This document shows, piece by piece, positions 11,055-22,699 of a stretch of DNA of 64,000 nucleotides. Origin of the DNA: Chloroflexota bacterium (GTDB lineage: Bacteria; Chloroflexota; Anaerolineae; Anaerolineales; Villigracilaceae); NCBI GenBank assembly GCA_016213105.1, contig JACRBN010000002.1, positions 62,001 to 126,000 on the forward strand. The letters are read 5' to 3'. The position numbers and the translations under genes were made by a program. The notes below the pieces were generated by a model that saw only the letters and a program-made list of their open reading frames with translations, had not been told where the DNA came from and did not search any database. How positions within the stretch are numbered: position 1 is the first letter of the stretch; each line of letters begins with the position of its first letter.

Positions 11055-11915
11055 AGAGACTGTATGAAAAGTGGTCGAGTAAGATAGGGGAATGACCAAA
11101 TTCACCCAAACTTACCCGACCGACTTGAAGTATACCGAATGGCAAGAGATTATGGAATTCTTTCCTGTGTACCAAATGGGACGCCCACGCACATGGGAAT
11201 ATTGGCAAATCATCAATGCGATCCTGTACGTGAACCGAACAGGATGCCAATGGCGAATGTTGCCGAAAGACCTTCCGCCGTGGGGAACGGTGTACAGTTA
11301 CTACTGGCACTGGTCTCATAGTGGGTTGTGGGAACGGATCAATGGTGCGCTGGTGAGGAAAGTACGTCAAGCGGAAGGGCGTGATCCGCAACCGAGTGCG
11401 GCGGTGATCGACAGTCAAAGTGTCAAGACCTCGGAAGGTGGTGAAGAACGTGGAATTGATGTCCATAAGCAAACACCAGGGCGAAAACGACACATTGTCG
11501 TGGATGTTTTGGGACTTTTGCTCGTCGTTGTTGTGCATAGTGCGAGCATTCAGGATGGAACCGGTGGCTTGCAGACATTACAAGCCTTGTTTGAGCGTAT
11601 CAAACGGAACCTGCATAATCGTTGGTGCCGTTTGAAATTGGTTTGGGCCGATGGTGCTTATGCTCAGATTGTCGAGAAAGTCCGCACACAATTTGGTTGG
11701 CAACTTGAAATTGTTCGCCGACCAGAAGATGCCAAAGGATTTCAGGTCTTGCCCAGACGGTGGGTCGTGGAACGCACCTTTGGTTGGTTGGGTCGCTATC
11801 GCCGATTGGCTCGCGATTATGAACATACAACCTTATCCAGTGAAACCATGACCTATATTGCCAGCGTTCGCCGTATGCTCAAGCTGGTGGCTACCTGACT
11901 TTTCATACACTCTCT
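11055..11915 (+). mobile_element. IS5-family insertion sequence
   Basis: Terminal inverted repeats flank the transposase: AGAGACTGTATGAAAAGT at 11055-11072 on the left, and on the right 11898-11915, whose complement reads AGAGAGTGTATGAAAAGT (one mismatch in 18). The element is about 860 bases, the usual size for this group. I could not identify a target-site duplication with confidence. Its lower GC content differs from the flanking genes, which suggests recent arrival. Confidence 0.85.
11092..11898 (+). CDS. IS5-family DDE transposase
   Basis: 268 residues and intact. The N-terminal DUF4096-like region (RPRTWEYWQIINAILYVNRT, WRMLPKDLPPWGTVYSYYW) is the usual IS5-group insertion-sequence domain. 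The catalytic triad can be read as D107 (AVIDSQS), D187 (VWADGAY) and E227 (VVERTFGWLGRYRRLARDYE). The stop codon touches the right terminal repeat. It catalyses cut-and-paste movement of the 11055-11915 element and appears functional. It does not interrupt a recognisable gene. Confidence 0.95.
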   Translation: MTKFTQTYPTDLKYTEWQEIMEFFPVYQMGRPRTWEYWQIINAILYVNRTGCQWRMLPKDLPPWGTVYSYYWHWSHSGLWERINGALVRKVRQAEGRDPQPSAAVIDSQSVKTSEGGEERGIDVHKQTPGRKRHIVVDVLGLLLVVVVHSASIQDGTGGLQTLQALFERIKRNLHNRWCRLKLVWADGAYAQIVEKVRTQFGWQLEIVRRPEDAKGFQVLPRRWVVERTFGWLGRYRRLARDYEHTTLSSETMTYIASVRRMLKLVAT

Positions 11916-11921
11916 GAAAGG

Positions 11922-12020
11922 GCGACGAAGCAATCTCCTCATTAATTGAGAGTATCCATAAAACATGAGATTGCTTCGTCGGGTTTCGATGCTTCGCATC
12001 TCAACCGTCCTCGCAATGAC
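11922..12020. repeat. Intergenic repeat, family 2 (GCAATCTC/GCAATGAC type), copy 1
   Basis: CGACGAAGCAATCTCCTCAT (from 11923) and the inverted ATGAGATTGCTTCGTCG (about 11964-11980), then CCTCGCAATGAC ending at 12020. The same words recur at 51880-51915 and about 60470-60555. It fills the interval between the IS element and the aromatic operon promoter. Confidence 0.75.
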
Positions 12021-12035
12021 GTGGAATTTTGCTGC

Positions 12036-12064
12036 TTGACACATTTCCCTTCGGTGCGTAGAAT
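12036..12064 (+). promoter_or_regulatory. Sigma-70-type promoter of the aromatic amino acid operon
   Basis: TTGACA (12036-12041), a 17-base spacer, and TAGAAT (12059-12064). This is the best promoter match in the window. Transcription would start near 12070-12072, only a few bases before the leader peptide ATG at 12075, so the leader message would be nearly leaderless. Confidence 0.85.
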
Positions 12065-12074
12065 AGCGCCCAAC

Positions 12075-12152
12075 ATGAAACTGTCCAACCGCTTTTATTT
12101 TGCGTACTACTTTTACGGCCTCCATAACCCGGTTGCCGTTGGTGGCGCTTAA
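12075..12152 (+). CDS. Phe/Tyr-rich leader peptide of the aromatic operon attenuator
   Basis: A 25-residue ORF starting MKLSNR. It has a run of seven aromatic codons in eight at residues 7-14 (FYFAYYFY), then GLHNPVAVGGA and TAA. It sits between a consensus promoter (12036-12064) and a perfect terminator hairpin (12184-12215), upstream of nine aromatic biosynthesis genes. This is the layout of Phe/Tyr leader peptides that sense charged tRNA by ribosome stalling, as known for pheL and pheM of enterobacteria. There is no Shine-Dalgarno; translation may be leaderless. TGCGTA (12101-12106), inside the aromatic codon run, can pair with TACGCA (12166-12171). GGCGCTT (12144-12150) can pair imperfectly with the 5' arm of the terminator and is a candidate antiterminator. 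Both pairings are by eye. Confidence 0.85.
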   Translation: MKLSNRFYFAYYFYGLHNPVAVGGA

Positions 12153-12183
12153 GCGGTAGGCAGAATACGCATACCCAGGAAAC

Positions 12184-12215
12184 AAGAGCGAGCCAATCGG
12201 CTCGCTCTTTTATTT
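12184..12215 (+). terminator. Attenuator terminator of the aromatic operon
   Basis: A perfect 11-base stem: AAGAGCGAGCC (12184-12194) with GGCTCGCTCTT (12199-12209), a 4-base loop AATC, followed by TTATTTT. It lies 31 bases after the leader peptide stop and 60 bases before aroH in the direction of transcription. A terminator here makes sense only if it is conditional. Confidence 0.9.
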
Positions 12216-12226
12216 TCCCCCATCCA

Positions 12227-12258
12227 CCCATTTTGAACGGCTCTTCGTTCCAAATGGG
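12227..12258 (+). promoter_or_regulatory. Second leader hairpin just before aroH
   Basis: CCCATTTTGAAC (12227-12238) pairs with GTTCCAAATGGG (12247-12258) with one mismatch and an 8-base loop. There is no T-run. The aroH ribosome site AGGAGG begins about 8 bases later. It could protect the message or affect aroH translation. Its loop GGCTCTTC could also pair with the terminator 5' arm, so it may take part in alternative folding (inference). Confidence 0.55.
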
Positions 12259-12275
12259 GGGCCACAGGAGGCACC

Positions 12276-12647
12276 ATGACCACTCGCGGCATCCGCGGCG
12301 CGACCACCGTCAGCGCAGACGAAAGAGAATCAATCCTCTCGGCCACCCGGGAGTTGCTGACCTCCATTCTGGAGGCCAATCCCGATTTGCGGACGGAGGA
12401 CATCGCCTCGGCGGTCTTCACCGTCACCGAGGACATCGCCTCGGCCTACCCTGCGCTGGCCGCCCGTCAAATCGGCTGGGACCTCGTCCCGATGATGTGC
12501 GCCCGCGAGATCCCCGTGCCTGACAGTTTGCCGCTGTGCATCCGTGCCCTGATCCACTGGAACACGGAGCTGCCGCAGGCGGACATTCATCACGTCTATC
12601 TGCGCGACGCCGTCAAATTGCGGCCCGACCTGGCCGCCCGCGCATAA
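12276..12647 (+). CDS. aroH: Chorismate mutase, AroH class
   Basis: 123 residues, the normal length for monofunctional AroH trimeric mutases. It starts [12 protein letters not shown], with the family Arg in RGIRGATT. Further conserved parts are [17 protein letters not shown] and the C-terminal [15 protein letters not shown], which contain the active-site Arg and Tyr of the Bacillus-type enzyme. It converts chorismate to prephenate for Phe and Tyr synthesis. It is the first structural gene after the attenuator, with a strong AGGAGG site. Confidence 0.93.
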
Positions 12648-12672: not shown

Positions 12673-13725
12673 ATGATGATCATTATGAAGGCCAGCTCGA
12701 CCCCGCAGGAAGTCGAGCGCGTGGTCGACAAGATCAAGTCGCTGGGACTGGCCGTCCATCTCTCGCAGGGCGTCGAAGCCACCATCATCGGCGCCATCGG
12801 CGAGACCCACAGCATTCCCACCGATCAGTTCGAGGTCATGGACGGGGTCGAGGTTGTCCAGCGCATCACGCAGCCGTACAAGCTGGCCTCCCGTCAATTT
12901 CATCCCGAGAACTCGATCTTTTCCATAGACGGATTCACCGTCGGTGGGGACGAGATCGCCGTCATCGCGGGGCCGTGCTCGGTCGAGAGTCGCTCGCAGA
13001 TCCTCGAGACGGCGCACGCGGTCAAGGAAGCGGGAGCCAGTGCGTTGCGCGGCGGCGTCTTCAAGCCGCGCACCTCGCCGTATGCCTTCCAGGGCTTGGG
13101 CGAAGAGGGACTGGAATTGCTGGCCGAAGCGCGTGAAGCCACGGGGCTGCCCATCGTGGTCGAGATCATGTCGCAGGTGCAGTTGGACTTGATGGTCAAG
13201 TACGTGGACGTGTTACAGGTCGGCGCGCGCAACATGCAGAACTTCAACCTGCTGCGCGCCGTCGGCGAGACGCGCACGCCCGTCCTGCTCAAACGCGGAC
13301 TGTCCGCCACCATCGAAGAATTGCTCATGTCTGCCGAATATGTTCTGGCGGGGGGAAACAAACAGGTCGTGCTGTGCGAGCGCGGCATCCGCACCTTCGA
13401 GACCGCCACCCGCAACACCACCGACATCAACGCCATCCCCGTCCTCAAGGGACTCACCCATCTGCCCGTCATCCTCGATCCCAGCCACTCGACGGGACAT
13501 TATGACTACGTGGCCGCCGTGGCCCGCGCCGCAGTCGCTGCGGGAGCGGATGGCATCATCGTGGAAGTCCACCCCGACCCCGCGCACGCCGTCTCCGATG
13601 GACGCCAGTCGCTCAAGCCCGAGAAGTTCGCGGCGATGGTCAAACAGATCGGTCAGATCGCCCAGATCATGGATCGCAGGCTGGCTTCGGCGCACGGGTC
13701 ATACTCACCGCAGGGTTGGGCGTAA
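12673..13725 (+). CDS. aroF: 3-deoxy-7-phosphoheptulonate synthase, type I-beta (copy 1)
   Basis: 350 residues. The N-terminal ferredoxin-like regulatory domain (1-about 70, [20 protein letters not shown]) is joined to the TIM-barrel synthase with AGPCSVES (about 98-105), [13 protein letters not shown], and [11 protein letters not shown]. It condenses phosphoenolpyruvate and erythrose 4-phosphate, the first shikimate step. ACT/ferredoxin-like N-termini in this class commonly mediate feedback control. A close tandem copy follows at 13888, and the gene lies 25 bases after aroH with its own AGGAG site. Confidence 0.93.
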
Positions 13726-13732
13726 TAACTCC

Positions 13733-13846
13733 GTCCTGAGCGGAGCGAGCCGACAGGCGAGCGCAGTCGAAGGACGAGATTACCAAGACACCTACGCTTC
13801 GACTGCGTTCGGGCGAAGGGCGCGCCCTCACTCCGCTCAGCGCGGA
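13733..13846. repeat. Intergenic repeat, family 3 (CTGAGCGGAG/GCAGTCGAAG type)
   Basis: CTGAGCGGAG (13736-13745) and GCAGTCGAAG (13763-13772) are mirrored by CTTCGACTGC (13797-13806) and CTCCGCTCAG (13831-13840), giving a large imperfect palindrome. It fills the gap between the two DAHP synthase genes. Confidence 0.8.
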
Positions 13847-13887
13847 CCATTTGTTCAGCACGAAAAATAGAAAAGGACTCTTTCACC

Positions 13888-14928
13888 ATGATGATCATCA
13901 TGCACCCAGGCGCGACGAAGGGACAGGTCGCACACGTCATTACCCACATCGAGGCCAATCACCTCTCGGCGCACGTCATCGAAGGCGCCGAGCAGACCGT
14001 CATCGGCGCGGTGGGCGAAAGCCACAGCATCCCCACCAGCGCCTTCGAGACTCTGCCAGGCGTGATGCTCGTGCAGCGCATCTCACAGCCATACAAACTG
14101 GCCTCGCGTCAGTTCCACCCCGAGGACTCGGTCTTCCCGATTGACGGGTTCAGCGTCGGGGGCGAGGAGATCGCCGTCATCGCGGGACCATGCTCGGTCG
14201 AGGGCCGCTCGCAGCTGCTCGAAATCGCGCAGGCGGTCAAGGAGGCGGGCGCGAACGCTCTGCGCGGCGGAGCCTTCAAGCCGCGCTCGTCGCCGTACGC
14301 CTTCCAGGGTTTGGGCGAAGAAGGCCTCGAATATCTGGCCGAGGCGCGCGAGCGGACAGGCCTGCCCGTGGTGGCCGAGATCATGGCCATCTCACAGATC
14401 GAGGTCATGACCCAGTACGTGGACGTGATGCAGGTCGGCGCGCGCAACATGCAGAACTTCAACCTGCTGCGCGCCATCGGCGAGACGCGCACGCCCGTGT
14501 TGCTCAAGCGCGGCCTCTCGGCCACCATCGAGGAACTGCTCATGGCGGCGGAATACATCCTCTCGGGCGGCAACAAAAAGGTCATGTTGTGCGAGCGCGG
14601 CATCCGCACCTTCGAAACCGCCACGCGCAATACCACCGACATCAACGCCATCCCTGCGCTCAAGTCGTTGACGCACCTGCCCGTCATCCTCGACCCCAGT
14701 CACTCGACGGGCCACGCCGCCTTCGTCTCGTCTGTTGCCAAAGGAGCCATCGCCGCGGGCGCGGACGGCCTGATCATCGAGGTACACCAGGATCCCGCGC
14801 ACGCTCTCTCGGACGGCAAGCAATCGCTCACGCCTGAGACCTTCGCCAAACTGGTCAGACAGGTCAAGGCCGTGGCCGAGGCGGTCGACCGTCGTCTGGC
14901 GGTCGCGTCGCCGCGCGAGGCGGCATGA
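13888..14928 (+). CDS. aroF: 3-deoxy-7-phosphoheptulonate synthase, type I-beta (copy 2)
   Basis: 346 residues, colinear with and very similar to the product of 12673-13725. It has the same MMIIM start, [25 protein letters not shown] and DPSHSTGH. Differences cluster in the N-terminal regulatory part and in surface helices. It catalyses the same condensation reaction; the two copies may differ in feedback specificity (Phe versus Tyr), which is inference. Its stop overlaps the start of tyrA (ATGA). A repeat separates it from copy 1. Confidence 0.93.
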
Positions 14929-15779
14929 GCGAGGATGGCTTTACCCTCAAGGATGCGAAGGTCGCCATCCTGGGATTGGGCCTGATGGGCGGCTCGCTGG
15001 CCCTTGCGTTGAAAGGACAGTGCGCCGCGCTGTTGGGAATCGACCCCGACCCCGCCGCCCTGTCGCTGGCCCTCCGCCAAAACATCGTCGACCAGGCGGA
15101 GAGCGACCCCGCCAAACTGCTCCCGCAGGCTGACCTCGTGATCCTGGCCGCGCCCGTGCCCATCATCCTCACGCTGCTGCGGAAGCTGCCCGAATACACG
15201 TCCAAGCCCTGCATCGTGCTCGACCTCGGCTCGACCAAGCGTGTCATCGTTGAGCAAATGGACAGTCTGCCCGAGCGCTTCGACCCGCTGGGTGGGCATC
15301 CCATCTGCGGCAAGGAAAAGCTGACCCTGGCCAACGCCGAGCGTACGCTCTACTACGGCGCGCCCTTCATCCTCACGCCGCTGACGCGCACCACGCCGCG
15401 CGCGCTGAGCGCCGTGCAGCAGGTCATCGCCACGATTGGCGCGAAGGCCATCACCCTCGACGCCGCCGAGCATGACCGCATCCTGGCCGCCACCAGTCAC
15501 CTGCCGTTCCTGCTCTCATCCGCGCTGGCGCTGGCCACCCCCGAAGAATGTGCGCCGCTGGTCGGCCCAGGCTTCCGCTCGGCCAGCCGACTGGCGGGCA
15601 CGCCGTCGAGTATGATGATGGGTGTCCTACAAACCAACCGCGAGAACATCCTGACCGCCATCCATCGTTTGCAGGCGCAACTCGACACGCTCGAAATGCA
15701 ACTCGCCGCAAGTGACTTTGCCAGTCTCGAAGCCACGTTGAACCAGGCACAAAACCAGCATTGCCGCTTCACACCCTGA
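14925..15779 (+). CDS. tyrA: Prephenate dehydrogenase
   Basis: 284 residues. The Rossmann motif is [18 protein letters not shown] (about 14-31). The later motifs [16 protein letters not shown] and [13 protein letters not shown] are those of TyrA dehydrogenases, where the His residues act in catalysis and substrate binding. It uses NAD(P) to convert prephenate (or arogenate) to the Tyr precursor. It is coupled to the second DAHP synthase by a four-base overlap. The usual C-terminal ACT domain is absent. Confidence 0.9.
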
Positions 15780-15805: not shown

Positions 15806-17083
15806 ATGCGCATCCATCCCATCTCCCACCCTTTGAATGCCACCGTCTACGTGCCTGGCTCCAAGTCGCTGACCAATCGTGCCTTGCTCATCGCCGCCCT
15901 GGCGAACGGTACCACGCGCCTGACGAACGCGCTCTTCAGCGACGACTCGCGCTACTTTGCGAAGGCCCTGCAAACCCTGGGCTTTGACGTGACCCTCGAT
16001 GAATCGAATCATGAGATGACGGTCACTGGTCTAGGCGGCAAAATCCCCACGCAGAAAGCGGAACTGTTCATCGGCAACGCAGGCACGGCAGCACGCTTTC
16101 TCTCCGCCTTCCTGACGCTGGGCGACGGCGAATACATCCTCGACGGCGATGCCCGCATGAGAGAACGCCCCATCGGTGATCTCGTCCAATCGCTGACCCA
16201 ACTCGGTGCAACCGTCCACGGTCAGCCGTCCACCGTCCCGCTAAAAATTATTGCGCATGGCCTGCCAGGCGGGAAGACTCAAATTGCAGGCAATATCTCC
16301 TCGCAATTTTTATCTGCCTTATTAATGGTCGCGCCGTACGCGCAAGCACCTATCGAGATCGAACTCAGCACCGACCTCAACTCCAAGCCCTACGTCGACA
16401 TGACCCAGTCCATCATGTCCGACTTCGGCGTGCAGATCGAACGCCACGATTATTCCCGCTTTATCATCCACCCCACTTTCTACTCGCCACTTTCCACCTA
16501 CCCCATCGAATCCGACGCCTCGGCCGCCTCGTACTTCTTCGCCGCGCCCGCCATCTTGGGCGGGACAGTCCGCGTGGAAAACATCTCGCGCCGCTCGAAG
16601 CAGGGCGACATCGCCTTCCTGGATGTGCTGCAACAAATGGGCTGCACCATCGAAGAAACTGATCACTGTGTACTGGTCACTGGTCACTCTCCTCTCGTCG
16701 GCCTCGACGTAGACATGCGCGACATCCCCGACACGGCCCAGACATTGGCGGCGATTGCGCCCTTCGCGTCCACGCCCACGCGCATCCGTGGCATCGCCTC
16801 GGCGCGCGTCAAGGAGACCGACCGCGTGGCCGCCGTCTGCACCGAACTGACGTGTCTCGGCGTGCAAGTCGAGGAACACGACGACGGCATGACCATCCAA
16901 CCGACCTTCGACCTTCAACCTTCGACCTTTACACCTGCCACCATTCACACCTACAACGACCACCGCATGGCCATGTCCTTCGCTCTGATCGGCCTGCGCA
17001 TGGACGGCGTCACCATTGAAAACCCTGGCTGCGTCTCCAAGACCTTCCCAAACTATTTCGATGTGCTGGAGTCCTTGCGATGA
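15806..17083 (+). CDS. aroA: 3-phosphoshikimate 1-carboxyvinyltransferase (EPSP synthase)
   Basis: 425 residues from ATG 15806 (MRIHPISHPLNATVYVPGSK). The frame is open upstream to 15761, inside tyrA, but the family starts near here. Motifs: PGSKSLTNRALLIAAL (shikimate 3-phosphate binding), GNAGTAARFL (about 90), SSQFLSALLM, and the C-terminal YNDHRMAMSFAL. It makes EPSP from phosphoenolpyruvate. Three low-complexity stretches in the coding region (16471-16504, 16658-16689, 16901-16932) resemble intergenic tandem repeats and encode surface-loop-like residues. The start has no obvious Shine-Dalgarno. The stop overlaps the aroE start. Confidence 0.93.
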   Translation: MRIHPISHPLNATVYVPGSKSLTNRALLIAALANGTTRLTNALFSDDSRYFAKALQTLGFDVTLDESNHEMTVTGLGGKIPTQKAELFIGNAGTAARFLSAFLTLGDGEYILDGDARMRERPIGDLVQSLTQLGATVHGQPSTVPLKIIAHGLPGGKTQIAGNISSQFLSALLMVAPYAQAPIEIELSTDLNSKPYVDMTQSIMSDFGVQIERHDYSRFIIHPTFYSPLSTYPIESDASAASYFFAAPAILGGTVRVENISRRSKQGDIAFLDVLQQMGCTIEETDHCVLVTGHSPLVGLDVDMRDIPDTAQTLAAIAPFASTPTRIRGIASARVKETDRVAAVCTELTCLGVQVEEHDDGMTIQPTFDLQPSTFTPATIHTYNDHRMAMSFALIGLRMDGVTIENPGCVSKTFPNYFDVLESLR

Positions 17084-17919
17084 TCCATCTCGGCCTGATC
17101 GGTTATCCACTGGGACACAGCCTCTCGCCAAAAATCCACACCGCCGCGCTGGCAGCCTGCGGCCTGCAAGGCGAGTACTCACTCTTCCCCATCGCGCCCG
17201 ACGACATGCACGGACTGAAAGATCTACTTGCCCGCGTGCGCAACGGCGAGATCCGCGGCCTGAACGTGACCATCCCGCACAAGCAAAACGTCATCGCGCT
17301 GCTGGATGAGCTGACGCCCACCGCGCAAGCCATCGGCGCGGTCAACACGATCTCGATGCGCGAAGGCAAACTCACAGGTGACAATACCGATGCGCCTGGC
17401 TTTCTGGCGGACTTGAAGAACTTTCTAACCACGGAGACACGGCCCCCTTCGGGAATGATAAGGCACAGAGGAAAGAAGACCCTTGTGTTAGGTGCTGGCG
17501 GTTCCGCGCGCGCGGTGGTCTACGCCCTCGTCCACGATGGCTGGGACGTAACCCTCTCCGCCCGCCGCCCTGAACAAGCGCAAGTCCTCGCATCCAATTA
17601 CCATTTACCAATTACAAACCTCACTGACCTTAGACTTGCGACCTTTGACCTTCTGGTAAACTCCACCCCCCTCGGCATGTTCCCCAACGTCGACGCCTCA
17701 CCCTGGCCTGAGCATTTGGCCTTCCCCAAGGATGGCGCCGTGTATGATCTGGTCTACAATCCAAGGAAAACGAAACTCGTCCGCAATGCACGCGCGGCTG
17801 GATTGCCTGCCACCACAGGTCTCGGCATGCTCATCGAGCAGGCCGCGCTGGCCTTTGAGATATGGACAGGGCAGAAGCCGCCGAGAGAAATTTTGTTTGA
17901 GGCAGTAAACGGTGGTTGA
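17080..17919 (+). CDS. aroE: Shikimate dehydrogenase
   Basis: 279 residues. Substrate domain: LIGYPLGHSLSPKIH (3-17), then NVTIPHKQNV with the catalytic Lys. The NADP domain motif is LVLGAGGSARAV, and NSTPLGMFP follows. It reduces 3-dehydroshikimate. Just before the NADP motif there are about ten extra residues (TTETRPPSGMIRHRG, 17427-17471) encoded by a CACGGAGACACGG-type repeat. Residues around SNYHLPITN (17594-17615) are encoded by the AATTACC repeat. The last codons and stop are supplied by the family 1 repeat starting at 17911. Start ATGA overlap with aroA. Confidence 0.92.
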   Translation: MIHLGLIGYPLGHSLSPKIHTAALAACGLQGEYSLFPIAPDDMHGLKDLLARVRNGEIRGLNVTIPHKQNVIALLDELTPTAQAIGAVNTISMREGKLTGDNTDAPGFLADLKNFLTTETRPPSGMIRHRGKKTLVLGAGGSARAVVYALVHDGWDVTLSARRPEQAQVLASNYHLPITNLTDLRLATFDLLVNSTPLGMFPNVDASPWPEHLAFPKDGAVYDLVYNPRKTKLVRNARAAGLPATTGLGMLIEQAALAFEIWTGQKPPREILFEAVNGG

Positions 17920-18055
17920 GTAGCCGCGAGCGCCAGCGAGCAGCGTACACTTGCACCAGCACGCAAGTGCAGGTATCGAAACCACCAGGAATGAAAAATA
18001 CTTTTGTAAACTGGTGGTTTCGATACGGCGGACGAACGCCGCCTACTCAACCACC
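17911..18055. repeat. Double-hairpin intergenic repeat, family 1, copy 2
   Basis: It begins GGTGGTTGAGTAG and ends CCTACTCAACCACC, with an internal inverted pair GGTATCGAAACCACC / GGTGGTTTCGATACGG. An extra short palindrome CACTTGCACCAGCACGCAAGTG lies in its first half. It overlaps the last three codons of aroE and separates aroE from aroC. Confidence 0.85.
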
Positions 18056-18080
18056 GAGTTTATATGAATACGGAGTCTTT

Positions 18081-19277
18081 ATGCTACGTTTCCTCACTGC
18101 TGGAGAATCCCACGGCCCCGCGCTGACCGCCATTCTGGACGGCATCCCCGCGGGTCTGCCGCTCGACGCATCCATCATCGACCTCGAACTGGCGCGCCGT
18201 CAGAAGGGCTACGGCTCGGGCGGACGCATGAAGATCGAGAAGGACACCGTTCAGATTTTGAGCGGCGTGATGGCAGGTGAGACGACAGGCGCGCCTATCG
18301 CGTTGCTGGTCGTCAACGATGACCACGTCAAGTGGAAGGGCAAGGCCATCGAGCCGCTGACGACGCCGCGCCCAGGCCACGCCGACCTGACGGGCGCGGT
18401 CAAGTACGGCTATCGCGATCTGCGTCCCACGCTGGAGCGTTCGTCCGCGCGCGAGACGACCATGCGCGTGGCGGCGGGCGCGGTCTGCAAGCAGCTGCTG
18501 GCGCAGTTCGGCATCCGCGTGGGCGGGTATGTCAAAGCCATCGGCGAGGTCGAAGCCGATTTTGACGGGACCAGCTACGAGGTCCGCTTTGAGGTGGCCG
18601 AGGCCAGCGATGTGCGCTGTCCCGATCCCGTCGCCGCGGGGAAGATGCGCGCCCGCATCGAAGAGATCATCCACAGCAAGGATACGCTGGGCGGCATCCT
18701 CGAGATCGTCGCGCTGAACCTGCCCGTTGGCCTTGGCTCGTATGCCCAATGGGATCGCCGTCTGGAGGCGCGCCTGGCGCAGGCGGTGCTGTCGGTGCAG
18801 GCCATGAAGGGCGTGGAGATCGGCGACGCTTTTGAAAATGCGCGCCGCCCTGGCACGCAGGCCCACGACGCGATGAGCGTTGAACCCTTCGACCAGGCTC
18901 AGGGCAAACGTTCAACGTTAAACGTTCAACGTTCCTCCAATCGCGCGGGCGGCACCGAGGGTGGCGTGACGAATGGTCAGCCGCTGGTCATTCGCGCCGC
19001 GATGAAGCCCATCGCCACCACGCTCACCCCACAGCGCACGGTCGACCTTGCCACAGGACAGGAAGGCCCCACCACCTACGAGCGCTCCGACTTCTGCCCC
19101 GTGCCGCGCGCCGTGCCGATCCTCGAAGCGATGGTCGCTTTCGTGTTGGCCGACGCCCTGCTCGAAAAGCTCGGCGGCGATTCGCTGGCGGAGATGAAGC
19201 CGCGCTTCGAAACGCTGCGGCGGGCGAACTTGCAAGATTTGCAGATGGATAACACGCCGCATGTTTGGTGGCCGTGA
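18081..19277 (+). CDS. aroC: Chorismate synthase
   Basis: 398 residues from ATG 18081, preceded by CGGAG. The longer open frame back to 17916 is only the repeat. Motifs: FLTAGESHGPALTAILDG, RRQKGYGSGGRMKIE, RPGHADLTGAVKYG and RSSARETTMRVAAGA bind FMN and EPSP; later NRAGGTEGGVTNGQPL and MKPIATT. It makes chorismate. Residues around EPFDQAQGKRSTLNVQRS (18882-18936) are extra relative to the usual loop. They are encoded by a CAGGCTCAGGG sequence and four AACGTT hexamers, i.e. repeat-derived sequence in frame. It is flanked on both sides by family 1 repeats, yet in the same direction as the rest of the operon. Confidence 0.93.
   Translation: MLRFLTAGESHGPALTAILDGIPAGLPLDASIIDLELARRQKGYGSGGRMKIEKDTVQILSGVMAGETTGAPIALLVVNDDHVKWKGKAIEPLTTPRPGHADLTGAVKYGYRDLRPTLERSSARETTMRVAAGAVCKQLLAQFGIRVGGYVKAIGEVEADFDGTSYEVRFEVAEASDVRCPDPVAAGKMRARIEEIIHSKDTLGGILEIVALNLPVGLGSYAQWDRRLEARLAQAVLSVQAMKGVEIGDAFENARRPGTQAHDAMSVEPFDQAQGKRSTLNVQRSSNRAGGTEGGVTNGQPLVIRAAMKPIATTLTPQRTVDLATGQEGPTTYERSDFCPVPRAVPILEAMVAFVLADALLEKLGGDSLAEMKPRFETLRRANLQDLQMDNTPHVWWP
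18907..18933. repeat. AACGTT tandem repeat inside aroC
   Basis: Four AACGTT hexamers spaced by one base (18907-18933, 27 bases, in frame). A shorter copy, GAACGTTCAACGTTTT, lies between the HlyD-like and FtsX-like genes at about 48632-48647. Confidence 0.75.
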
Positions 19278-19320
19278 GATGGTAATTTTGCCATCTGATA
19301 TTTTATTGCAGAGACACAAC

Positions 19321-19442
19321 GGTGGTCGAGTAGGCGGCGTTCGTCCGCCGTATCGAGACCACCAGGAAACAAAATATTCAAAATTCGTGACAAGTGTGGT
19401 CTCGATACGCCCTCCGCTGTCGCGTCGGGCTACTCGACCACC
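19321..19442. repeat. Double-hairpin intergenic repeat, family 1, copy 3
   Basis: First hairpin 19321-19363, GGTGGTCGAGTAG to TATCGAGACCACC, with an inner GGCGG/CCGCC stem. Second hairpin runs from about 19397, TGTGGTCTCGATACG to CTACTCGACCACC. It lies between aroC and aroKB, so the operon is punctuated by two copies of this element. Confidence 0.85.
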
Positions 19443-19463
19443 TTTAGATTCGCAAAGGACTCC

Positions 19464-21005
19464 ATGACTCATATTTTTATGTACGGCCCCTCGGGTTCGG
19501 GCAAAAGCACGGTTGGCAAAATTCTGGCCGCAAGCCTGAACCTGCCCTTTTGGGATTTGGACTCACACATCGAACGCACGGTGGGACAGGATATCCCGTC
19601 GATCATGGCCGAACGCGGCGAGCCGTTCTTTCGAGACCTGGAAGCGGATGCCCTTAAATCGGCTATCTCTGGTCCCGAGGCGATCGTCGCCCTGGGTGGA
19701 GGCGCCTTGCTGCGCGCGGAGAATCGCACGCTGGCCGAAGCGTCGGGACAGGTGATTCGGCTTGCAGCGGATCTGCCCACGCTGACAGCGCGGCTCGCGC
19801 AGGACTCGAATCAACGTCCGCTGCTGGCGGGCGAGCTGGAAAGCAAATTGGCGGCTCTGCTTGAACGCCGCCGCGAACATTATGACTCGTTTGCCCTGCG
19901 CGTGGATGCGGCGTCTGTTGCCGAGCAGGTCGCCTGGGACATTCAGCGCCTGCTGGGACGCTATCACGTGCGCAGCATGGGCGCGGGCTACGATATCCTC
20001 GCGCAGGAAGGCGCATTGCAGCAGATTGGCATGATGCTCAAGTCACGCGAATTGAATGGGCCGACGCTGGTCGTCAGCGACACGAACGTCGCGCCGCTGT
20101 ACGCGGAACAGGTGATGAACTCATTGCGCGTGGCAGGCTATGCCACCAGTTCCATCGTCATTTCCGCAGGCGAGGCGTTCAAGAATCTCGAAACCGTTGC
20201 CTTACTCTGGCGCGGATTCCTCGAAGCGGGACTGGATCGCAAGAGCACGGTCATCGCGCTGGGCGGTGGCGTGGTCGGTGACATGGCGGGCTTCGCGGCG
20301 GCCACGTTCATGCGCGGTTGCAATTGGGTGGCCGTGCCCACCACCCTGCTGGCCATGGTGGATGCGTCGATGGGCGGCAAGACGGGCTTTGACCTGCCCG
20401 AAGGCAAGAACCTGGTCGGCGCGTTCCACTCGCCGCGGCTGGTGTTGGCCGACCCGCAAGTCCTCGCCACGCTGCCCGAGCGCGAACTGCGCGCAGGGCT
20501 GGCGGAGGTGGTCAAGCACGGCATCATCGCGGACCCTGGGTTGTTCGAGCTGTGCGCTCAGGGCTGGGACGTTGTCCATGCGCGGCTGGCCGAGGTGGTG
20601 CGGCGCGCGATGGCGGTCAAGGTGCGGGTTATCGAGGAAGACCCGTACGAGCAGGGCATCCGCGCGACGTTGAACCTGGGTCATACCATCGGGCACGCGG
20701 TGGAGCTGGTCAGCGGATTCCGCTTGCTGCACGGCGAGGCCGTGGCCATCGGCACGGTGGCTGAGGCGCGGCTGGCGGAACGTTTAACGGTGGCAGGCAC
20801 GGGCGTAGTCGAGCGGATCACGGAGACGCTGTCCGCGTTGGGGCTGCCGGTCGAGATTCCCACAGAAATGGATCGCGCCGACCTCATCCGCGCCATGCGC
20901 GTGGACAAGAAGAAGTCGGCGGGCGTCGTGCGTTTTGCGCTGGCCGTCAAGATCGGCGAAGTGAAGGTTGGCGTGGAAGTGAAGGATTTGGAGGAGGTGT
21001 TATGA
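19464..21005 (+). CDS. aroKB: Shikimate kinase / 3-dehydroquinate synthase fusion
   Basis: 513 residues. Residues 1-about 165 are a shikimate kinase with P-loop GPSGSGKST (8-16), DLDSHIE and the lid-like [10 protein letters not shown]. Residues about 170-513 are 3-dehydroquinate synthase with [57 protein letters not shown] and the metal-ligand region AEVVKHG and [12 protein letters not shown]. It catalyses steps five and two of the shikimate pathway in one polypeptide. The frame is intact through the junction. AAAGGA precedes the ATG. Its stop overlaps the aroQ start. Confidence 0.93.
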
Positions 21006-21427
21006 AAATTCTGGTATTGCATGGCCCGAACCTGAACCTGTTGGGCACGCGTGAGCCTGGCGTGTACGGCAGCCTGACGATGGAAGACATCGACGCAAAG
21101 CTGGTCGAGCTGGGCAGGATGCTGGGCGCGGAGGTGATCTGCCGCCAGTCGAACCACGAGGGCGTGCTGATCGATGCCCTGCATGATGCGCGAACCTGGG
21201 CCGACGGCGTGGTCTTCAACCCAGGCGCGTACACGCACACTTCGGTGGCGCTGCGCGACGCGGTGGCCGCGATTGGCATCCCCGTGGTGGAGGTGCATCT
21301 CTCGAACGTCTACGCGCGCGAGGAGTTCCGCCACAAGTCGCTGCTCTCGGCGGTCTGTAAGGGTAAGATCAGCGGCTTTGGCTGGCAATCCTACGCGCTG
21401 GGGCTGCGGGCGCTGGTGGAAGGTTAA
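21002..21427 (+). CDS. aroQ: 3-dehydroquinate dehydratase, type II
   Basis: 141 residues, standard for the dodecameric type II enzyme. Motifs: [19 protein letters not shown] with the catalytic Tyr, [22 protein letters not shown] and [15 protein letters not shown]. It forms 3-dehydroshikimate. As the last gene of the aromatic cluster it completes the set of all seven shikimate steps. It overlaps aroKB by four bases and is followed by a palindrome. Confidence 0.95.
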
Positions 21428-21460: not shown

Positions 21461-21490
21461 GGGGTGATATACTTCGTCGGGTTTTGCCCA

Positions 21491-22699
21491 ATGAAGTCAT
21501 TTACCATTCAAAATAAAAACCTGTTCTTTGCGCGTCTGTATTATTTCGCATTCATGGGTGGATGGGGGTTCATCCTCCCGTTCATGAACCTCTTTTACGT
21601 GAGCCTCGGATTTAGCGGAAAACAGATCGGCGTCATCTCATCCACCAGCGCCATTGTGGGGATGATCGCTTCGCCCATCTGGGTCAGCACGGTCAAGCGG
21701 CATCCGCTCGCGCAGAGGATTCTGCAAGCAGCCATCCTGTTCGGGGCGATTGGCTATTATCTCATCGGCCGCCAGACGGATTATCTCGCCATTATCTTCA
21801 TCGTCTTTCTGCACTCGCTGGCCTCCTCGGGTGTGATGCCGCTCTCGGACTCGATGGCGGTTACCGTTTCGAAGGAGTCAGGCAAGGGTTACGGCAGCGT
21901 GCGCGCCTGGGCCTCGCTCGGGTGGATCATCTGCCTGCTGTCCTCGGGCCAGTTGGTGGGACGTTTCGGCTACATCGCGGGCTTCATCGGCGTGACCGTC
22001 ATGTGGCTGGTCGCGGCGGCGATGGTTTTCCTGATCCAGCCGCATCACTTCACTCACCAGGTCGCATCCGACCAGCCCAGGCCGAATCTGCGCCTGGCGG
22101 TGCAGCGGGTCTTTCAGGATCGAACCCTGATCGGCTTTGCCGTGGCGCTGGTCTTCATTGGCTTCCTCAACAACGGCGTGCTGCAATTCGAAAATGTCTT
22201 TCTGGCCGAACTGGGCGCGTCGAAGCAATTGATCTCGGTGGCAGGTATCCTCAGCGCGCTGGTGGAACTGCCGTTCATGGTCTACGCCGACCGCATCGTT
22301 CATCGCGTCGGCGCGCATCGTCTGTTGATGATCGCCCTGTTGATGACGTTGTTGCAGCGCGTGGCGGTCTTTCTATTGCCCTTCATTCCCACCATCATGA
22401 TCGTGCGTTTCATCGGCGGGGTGGCGTTCAGTTTCTACACCGTTTCCTTTATTGGGCTGATCAGCAGGCATACCCAGCCCTCGGAAACGGGTACCGTGCT
22501 GGCGCTGTACACGGTCACGATTGCGGGCATGGTCAACATCGTGGCCGCGCCCGTGGGCGGCGCCCTCTTTGACGCAATCGACATGCGCTGGCTGTATCCG
22601 ATCTCGGCGGCGGGCTATCTCATTGGAATCGGCAGTCTGTGGCTGACGCGGCCAGGCATCCAGGCGCAGGTCAACCTGGAGTCCCGCCCGCAAGAATAG
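21491..22699 (+). CDS. MFS transporter
   Basis: 402 residues from ATG 21491 (MKSFTIQNKN); an in-frame GTG at 21464 lies directly against the palindrome and is less likely. About twelve hydrophobic segments. It has the loop GFSGKQIGVISSTSAIVGM typical of the MFS_1-like nucleoside-H+ symporter/LacY-like subgroup, and KESGKGYGSVRAWASLGW, which matches the conserved RxWGSxG motif of that subgroup. The substrate cannot be stated. It probably belongs to its own unit; no strong ribosome site is seen. Confidence 0.8.
   Translation: MKSFTIQNKNLFFARLYYFAFMGGWGFILPFMNLFYVSLGFSGKQIGVISSTSAIVGMIASPIWVSTVKRHPLAQRILQAAILFGAIGYYLIGRQTDYLAIIFIVFLHSLASSGVMPLSDSMAVTVSKESGKGYGSVRAWASLGWIICLLSSGQLVGRFGYIAGFIGVTVMWLVAAAMVFLIQPHHFTHQVASDQPRPNLRLAVQRVFQDRTLIGFAVALVFIGFLNNGVLQFENVFLAELGASKQLISVAGILSALVELPFMVYADRIVHRVGAHRLLMIALLMTLLQRVAVFLLPFIPTIMIVRFIGGVAFSFYTVSFIGLISRHTQPSETGTVLALYTVTIAGMVNIVAAPVGGALFDAIDMRWLYPISAAGYLIGIGSLWLTRPGIQAQVNLESRPQE

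Follow-up and report, generated by a model that had tools for sequence, protein, structure and literature searches.

A predicted ribosome-mediated attenuator with an aromatic leader peptide before the shikimate/tyrosine genes of a Chloroflexota bacterium

Attenuation in E. coli trpL follows the logic of protector, antiterminator and terminator, with the antiterminator arm located after the leader. In the enterobacterial pheL-pheA and pheST systems (Rfam RF01859, Phe_leader), a translated Phe leader with a terminator controls pheA or pheST. The nearest precedent that we found for the locus studied here is aroR-aroF of Corynebacterium glutamicum. The passages on aroR in PMC11802643 and PMC4046766 describe a Phe-Tyr-Phe leader before the DAHP-synthase gene aroF, and the account of Neshat et al. 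(2014) given in the former states that stalling under Phe limitation raises transcription, with no response to Tyr. For the ilvBNC leader of Corynebacterium, the title of Morbach et al. (2000), cited in PMC4046766, states that it is formed without a ribosome binding site, and the relevant passage of PMC11857589 presents a three-hairpin model of terminator, antiterminator and anti-antiterminator. The consulted part of a 2005 survey of Actinobacteria (PMC1262725) did not detect conserved RNA elements upstream of the operons for phenylalanine and tyrosine. In the parts of the literature covered by our search, no leader-peptide attenuator is described for Chloroflexi, and PMC4833913 and PMC9413887 mention the phylum there without such an attenuator; this agrees with the first-pass annotation, which knew of no described case in Chloroflexota, and an earlier prediction is possible (2010 survey of Lopatovskaya et al.).

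Here, we have analysed a window of 64,000 nucleotides from a Chloroflexota bacterium (Anaerolineae, Villigracilaceae; contig JACRBN010000002.1), in which an aromatic leader peptide and a terminator precede a set of shikimate genes. Like aroR-aroF, the locus has a leader peptide with Phe and Tyr codons upstream of a DAHP synthase operon; unlike the FYF of that actinobacterial leader, to which it is likened by description only, the window leader has seven aromatic residues in eight. Like the enterobacterial systems, it would have a translated Phe leader followed by a terminator, but it precedes shikimate pathway genes rather than pheA or pheST, and Tyr is nearly as frequent as Phe. These enterobacterial leaders had been named as the precedent at first; they are of the same kind, and the best match of RF01859, at 12079-12214, scores 23.2 bits where the gathering cut-off is 55, but aroR of C. 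glutamicum is nearer. As in ilvBNC, again compared by description, no Shine-Dalgarno-like sequence precedes the leader and alternative hairpins are predicted, whereas ilvBNC serves branched-chain amino acids in another phylum. Compared with the layout of E. coli trpL, the predicted 5' arm of the antiterminator in the window falls within the last leader codons, its final base being the first of the stop codon.

The leader, the genes behind it and their conservation

All features described here are on the forward strand. A promoter (12036-12064) with TTGACA at 12036-12041, a 17-nt spacer and TAGAAT at 12059-12064 is followed by a leader ORF of 25 codons, MKLSNRFYFAYYFYGLHNPVAVGGA, which runs from the ATG at 12075 to the TAA at 12150-12152. 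Its control codons 7-14 (12093-12116) read FYFAYYFY, so that seven of eight residues are F or Y. The intrinsic terminator (12184-12216) consists of a perfect 11-bp stem with a 4-nt loop, AAGAGCGAGCC-AATC-GGCTCGCTCTT at 12184-12209, and the T-rich tail TTATTTT. Promoter, ORF and terminator are all where the first-pass annotation had placed them. Beyond the terminator, AGGAGG at 12266-12271 is the putative ribosome binding site of aroH. An imperfect inverted repeat, CCCATTTTGAAC...GTTCCAAATGGGG (12231-12261), is located between the terminator and this site, and a counterpart is visible by eye in the relatives L002 and L005.

The set begins with aroH, a type I chorismate mutase (12276-12647, PF07736), followed by two genes of DAHP synthase (12673-13725 and 13888-14928, both PF00793 and PF18152), tyrA for prephenate dehydrogenase (14925-15779, PF02153), aroA for EPSP synthase (15806-17083, PF00275, with the start picked by eye) and aroE for shikimate dehydrogenase (17080-17919, PF08501). 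Then come aroC for chorismate synthase (18081-19277, PF01264; start by eye at MLRFLTAGES, Pfam search on 18000-19277), an aroKB fusion of shikimate kinase and 3-dehydroquinate synthase (19464-21005, PF01202 and PF01761) and aroQ, a type II 3-dehydroquinase (21002-21427, PF01220). Pfam confirmed all nine genes of the shikimate set that had been claimed. Gene order and spacing suggest that the nine aro/tyr genes form one operon. That one leader controls all of them is only suggested by this arrangement, since three gaps, of 162 nt between the DAHP synthase genes and of 161 and 186 nt on the 5' and 3' sides of aroC, could hold internal promoters. The two adjoining DAHP synthase genes (12673-14928) have an identical domain make-up and apparently arose by tandem duplication. 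An MFS-type transporter gene (21464-22699, PF12832 and PF07690) starts 36 nt past aroQ and may be a member of the operon.

Promoter-like matches numbered 4 per 2.5 kb against 1.4 ± 1.1 in shuffles, and terminator-like matches 2 against 2.7 ± 1.7. As such matches in one sequence are not significant, we examined relatives for conservation, and it is the conservation that goes beyond chance, not the promoter-like or terminator-like matches, which by themselves are weak evidence. A search for AroH in 150 genomes of the family found it in 118, of which 116 were examined (110 loci and six later ones; G141 and G146 were left out as partial hits). An aromatic-rich leader is present in all 112 aroH loci with enough upstream sequence, which answers the question whether the ORF with its aromatic codons persists in relatives. 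Our script found an ATG ORF with at least four aromatic residues in eight in 106 of the 110 loci; the leader of L184 was added by hand, and the ORF of L182 was reassigned by hand, with the aromatic scores of both entered manually. The contigs of L025, L125 and L156 end 170, 106 and 154 nt upstream, respectively, too short for a leader. Five of the six later loci have one, and the sixth, L357, has 2 nt of upstream sequence. This conservation of leader and aromatic codons led us to reject a chance ORF.

Among the first 107 leaders, the best eight residues contain at least six aromatic ones in 103, five in three and four in one (L009). Two finders together called a terminator in 104 of the 107 (92/106 and 96/107 singly), and in the three missed by both (L122, L181 and L182) the hairpin is visible by eye. 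In the 96 leaders measured, the terminator starts 18-38 nt past the leader stop. In L182 (G082:C29:900-2400), the leader frame overruns the usual stop into the terminator, with TGTTGCTTAAG out of frame; this is either a sequencing error or a decaying leader.

The order of residues in the aromatic run varies (FYFAYYFY, WFAFYFYY, WFAYFYFY, YFFSYYFF, FFFSTYYY). That the residue class is kept and the order is not is as expected for tRNA sensing. In total, 106 leaders contain 399 F, 339 Y and 64 W. The description of a Phe/Tyr leader for this lineage holds insofar as F and Y are present in all 107 leaders, and has to be widened in two respects: W is present in 65 of the 107, and similar leaders are found outside the family and the class. 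The tail after the run looks like a peptide motif, GFRxxVAVGGA. In some leaders this RNA stretch lies in a different frame and reads RLPLVALK, and the survival of the tail despite the frame shift indicates that the RNA rather than the peptide is conserved.

The start of the leader is also conserved. In the window, the ATG lies 10 nt past the -10 hexamer and no Shine-Dalgarno-like sequence stands in between. Promoter hexamers were matched in 104 of the 107 family leaders, with a 17-nt spacer in 100 of the 104, and the distance from the -10 hexamer to the ATG is 10 nt in 87 and 8-11 nt in 97 of them. A Shine-Dalgarno-like motif is found in none of the 104 between the -10 hexamer and the leader ATG, and in 107 of 107 before aroH. 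The relevant section of PMC3160421 recognises leaderless genes by a -10-like signal about 10 bp 5' of the start codon and reports them in 4 of the 12 Chloroflexi genomes, at a mean of 4.7% of genes. Going by this spacing, the leader peptide in the family is probably made from a leaderless or nearly leaderless transcript.

Predicted folds and the position of the ribosome

The untranslated RNA of the window folds with a z-score of -5.2, and three structures form in it. One is a protector (12081-12163), in which GGUGGCGC (12141-12148) pairs with GCG (12102-12104) and CUACU (12107-12111), and ACCGCUU (12088-12094) pairs with AAGCGGU (12151-12157). The others are P1, a hairpin within the leader ORF (12115-12139; ACGGC at 12115-12119 with GCCGU at 12135-12139), and the terminator. 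The predicted antiterminator pairs a 5' arm, GUUGGU-GG-CGCUU (12138-12150), whose last base is the first of the stop codon, with a 3' arm, GAGCG-A-GCCAAU (12186-12197), which overlaps the terminator 5' arm and loop.

We modelled a stalled ribosome by masking 13 nt from the start of the A-site in an RNA made as far as the terminator loop. With the ribosome at codon 11, 14 or 16, 12138-12143 pairs with 12192-12197 and 12146-12150 with 12186-12190; at codon 7, P1 forms too and the first part of the antiterminator shrinks to 12140-12143. At the stop codon, the terminator alone remains. A fold able to disrupt the stem at 12184-12209 had been asked for, and the pairing of 12138-12150 with 12186-12197 when the control codons are covered provides one in computation.

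The same calculation was made for 96 family leaders; eleven without a terminator call, eight of them positive by the other finder, were left out. The expected number of antiterminator pairs had a median of 0.64 in the ribosome-free RNA and of 9.36 for the best stall at an aromatic codon. With the ribosome at the stop codon it was 0, a value that follows from the masking itself and hence is not independent evidence. At least five pairs were obtained at the best aromatic codon in all 96. With the A-site anywhere from 22 to 8 codons ahead of the stop, the mean exceeded 7.6; once it was 5 codons away or closer, the mean was about 1 or less. In 18% of the 96 sequences, at least five antiterminator pairs are already present in the untranslated RNA, and the mean reaches 4.4 with the ribosome no farther than codon 3, so that the protector is loose in some species. 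Stalling at codons 12-14 of L024 yields just 0.1-4.1 pairs.

Pairing of the arm with the terminator has a mean energy of -12.4 kcal/mol in the 96 sequences, against -8.0 ± 0.25 kcal/mol for shuffled arms. The leader window that pairs best is at the arm, defined as beginning 24 to 14 nt ahead of the stop codon's last base, in 68 of the 96, and elsewhere in the leader in 28. In every second leader of the set (48), the switch with at least five pairs is found in 81% of native sequences versus 15% of 192 synonymously recoded ones with shuffled spacers. The computed folds together predict an antiterminator that excludes the terminator and is set by the position of the ribosome. In the full transcript with the ribosome at codon 14, the terminator is computed at -33.2 and the antiterminator at -15.5 kcal/mol. 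Since the completed terminator is the more stable, antitermination would have to be kinetic, as is generally held for ribosome-mediated attenuators.

A subset (A1) comprises 52 of the 96 leaders, selected at less than 90% identity. In the covariation analysis of the terminator and P1, 98.1% of cells are paired, and 51 cells show double changes versus 10.9 in shuffles. The covarying stems looked for in relatives are borne out in part: changes on both sides occur in seven of ten terminator pairs and in one of six P1 pairs, a slight signal for P1, and in the strict alignment columns the core of the antiterminator helix gives none (94.6% paired, equal to shuffles, with 0 double changes). The arm is nearly invariant. 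If the partner is slid along, at most 79.5% of cells pair. In L183, L189 and L184, CGUUU/AAACG stands where CGCUU/GAGCG is usual, a compensating change of C-G to U-A in a shifted register; L183 and L189 pair weakly with their own terminators (-8.7 and -8.5 kcal/mol), more weakly than some swapped pairs do. When arms and terminators were swapped among 19 hand-chosen sequences (L016 in place of L014), own pairs averaged -13.3 and swapped pairs -12.2 kcal/mol, a modest advantage, with 164 of 20000 permutations equal or better. Position, energy and recoding give the predicted antiterminator good support, and covariation gives it weak support.

A model of attenuation and its rivals

We consider it very probable that this locus is a ribosome-mediated transcription attenuator of the shikimate/tyrosine operon. 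A short leader ORF strings together codons for the amino acids that the operon makes, and an intrinsic terminator lies between the leader ORF and the first gene; the attenuator reading of the first-pass annotation gains support from conservation in the family and from the mutually exclusive computed folds. Leader translation, stalling, termination in vivo and the amino acids sensed are what we infer from these features, and one leader may respond to both Phe and Tyr, the C. glutamicum leader being reported to respond to the former and not to the latter.

We propose that transcription could start a few bases 5' of the leader ATG, so that the leader would be read from a nearly leaderless RNA. 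When charged tRNA-Phe and tRNA-Tyr are ample, the ribosome would reach the stop codon and cover 12138-12150; with the arm covered, the terminator at 12184-12209 would form and transcription would stop before aroH. A shortage of Phe- or Tyr-tRNA would stall the ribosome on codons 7-14, where it would remove the protector and free the arm; the arm could then pair with 12186-12197 as that segment emerges, block the terminator and let RNA polymerase enter the aro genes. If there is no translation, the protector would keep hold of the arm and termination would be the default.

On this model the locus would combine features that are uncommon, namely a near-leaderless start, an antiterminator arm that reaches the stop codon, the pooling of two to three aromatic amino acids and a whole pathway behind one leader. 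If the model is right, it would give Chloroflexota a conserved regulatory RNA for the whole pathway that no Rfam family covers at cut-off, and extend ribosome-mediated attenuation to another phylum. Attenuation would be coupled to an apparently leaderless initiation, in which ribosome loading and RNA polymerase would have to be timed without a Shine-Dalgarno site, and the leader would be a clean case of an RNA segment that codes for a peptide tail and is constrained by the RNA fold.

Could the peptide itself be what matters? The leader is short and aromatic, and its length is similar in many relatives, as might be expected of an arrest peptide whose nascent chain stalls the ribosome through exit-tunnel contacts, possibly together with a free aromatic ligand, and whose output is the terminator. 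The aromatic run conserves the class of its residues only, not their order, the tail survives frame shifts as RNA, and stall sites across the whole run work in the fold computation; these points make an arrest peptide very unlikely. The strong conservation at the RNA level around the stop codon would fit an RNA that senses a ligand or binds tRNA directly, such as an aptamer or a T-box, in place of a translated leader. We regard this as extremely improbable, because the aromatic codon run is conserved, no Rfam family, T-box included, reaches its gathering score in the window or in six relatives, and the best sub-threshold match, Phe_leader, is itself a translated attenuator; a T-box is also absent among the four Rfam hits up to an E-value of 10 at 12020-12290.

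Terminators before operons can be unregulated, and the role in regulation is argued here from sequence and folds. Both points would suit a constitutive partial terminator that merely accompanies a small functional protein or an sRNA. The mutually exclusive antiterminator is lost on synonymous recoding, however, and the amino acids of the leader match the pathway, so that we give this explanation very little credence. Translational control through a hidden ribosome binding site of aroH was rejected for the window, where 56 nt separate the terminator from AGGAGG; in 92 relatives, the distance from the terminator to the aroH start is 14-135 nt, and such control is less clearly excluded for the shortest.

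Other lineages, other operons and the genomic setting

Searched with a covariance model of the leader, the window's own genome yields one real site, a second match there being that site's terminator read on the opposite strand. In the class, the model matches 35 of 346 genomes, 18 of which belong to the family. Outside the family, 15 of 17 model matches have an aromatic leader and a terminator before chorismate mutase. At L218 the enzyme gene is there but the script found no leader, and L220 has no chorismate mutase match; the same is true of L322, a second model match in a family genome. Among 64 chorismate mutase loci outside the family, 19 have at least five aromatic residues in eight together with a terminator, 13 have an aromatic ORF without a terminator call and 32 have neither. 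These counts are no sample of prevalence, as 34 of the 64 loci were hand-picked, 28 of them after leaders had appeared in the family f71 and 13 of those from f71. The 19 positives belong to the families f23, f36 and f38 within the class and f71, f81 and f107 outside it.

The leaders outside the family are similar to that of the family. An example from the f71/f81 groups, outside the class, is MVGSRFYTYFFYFTSRKPDWSLRISWR, in which the tail segment around GGUCGCUUCGC pairs with the terminator arm. In 18 hand-chosen leaders from outside the family, this partner lies 3-25 nt before the leader end in 12, runs past the stop in two and is farther upstream in four. A ribosome at the stop cuts the computed pairing to at most five in 15 of the 18. 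The untranslated RNA has at least five antiterminator pairs in 17 of the 18, so that no protector is evident outside the family. In f71, the ATG is farther from the apparent -10 hexamer by eye, which suggests that the leaderless start is a feature of the window's family and not of the whole set.

It is conceivable, though we hold it with more doubt than confidence, that the attenuator predates the split between Anaerolineae and Chloroflexia. It might combine the charging levels of tRNA-Phe, tRNA-Tyr and often also tRNA-Trp in a single signal that governs the whole common aromatic pathway, and so take the place of a repressor as its main control. In the window's family, the leader peptide would then be leaderless, and its final codons together with the stop codon would make up the arm of the switch.

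Other operons were surveyed in 20 relatives and the window's own genome. Before trpE, 12 loci gave two W-containing ORFs (L252 and L257), neither with a terminator; before pheS, the 17 loci examined out of 22 showed no comparable leader; and before leuA, the 15 loci examined out of 25 gave one LLL-containing ORF in all. The TrpE N-terminal family PF04715 has no match in the window's own genome (G000) and one in the sister genome, which may reflect loss or incompleteness. An aromatic-rich ORF with a terminator was found in none of the 33 loci, out of 80, that are not labelled as Chloroflexi, Chloroflexota, Anaerolineae or a member of these; L102 has just 38 nt upstream.

In 15 of the 110 family loci, pheA (prephenate dehydratase) is directly upstream on the same strand, the match ending 41-224 nt before the leader, and Pfam confirmed prephenate dehydratase upstream in the sister genome L002. 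At the place of this pheA, the window has an IS5-type transposase gene (DUF4096 and DDE, 11092-11898), and the difference suggests a rearrangement that left promoter and leader intact. The prephenate dehydratase of the window's genome is found on another contig, near the contig end and behind an ORF that resembles an aminotransferase by eye; no clustered aromatic leader was found in the 259 nt upstream of that ORF. Between the insertion sequence and the promoter, a segment GAGATTGCTTCGTCG...CCTCGCAATGAC (11952-12020), present in an altered form in L002, resembles a dispersed intergenic repeat and has a single copy in the window at up to three mismatches. Farther downstream, an apparent inverted intergenic repeat flanks aroC at 17916-18080 and about 19280-19460 on opposite strands, and the two segments are similar in translation (WWFRYGGRTPPTQPP and WWSRYGGRTPPTRPP).
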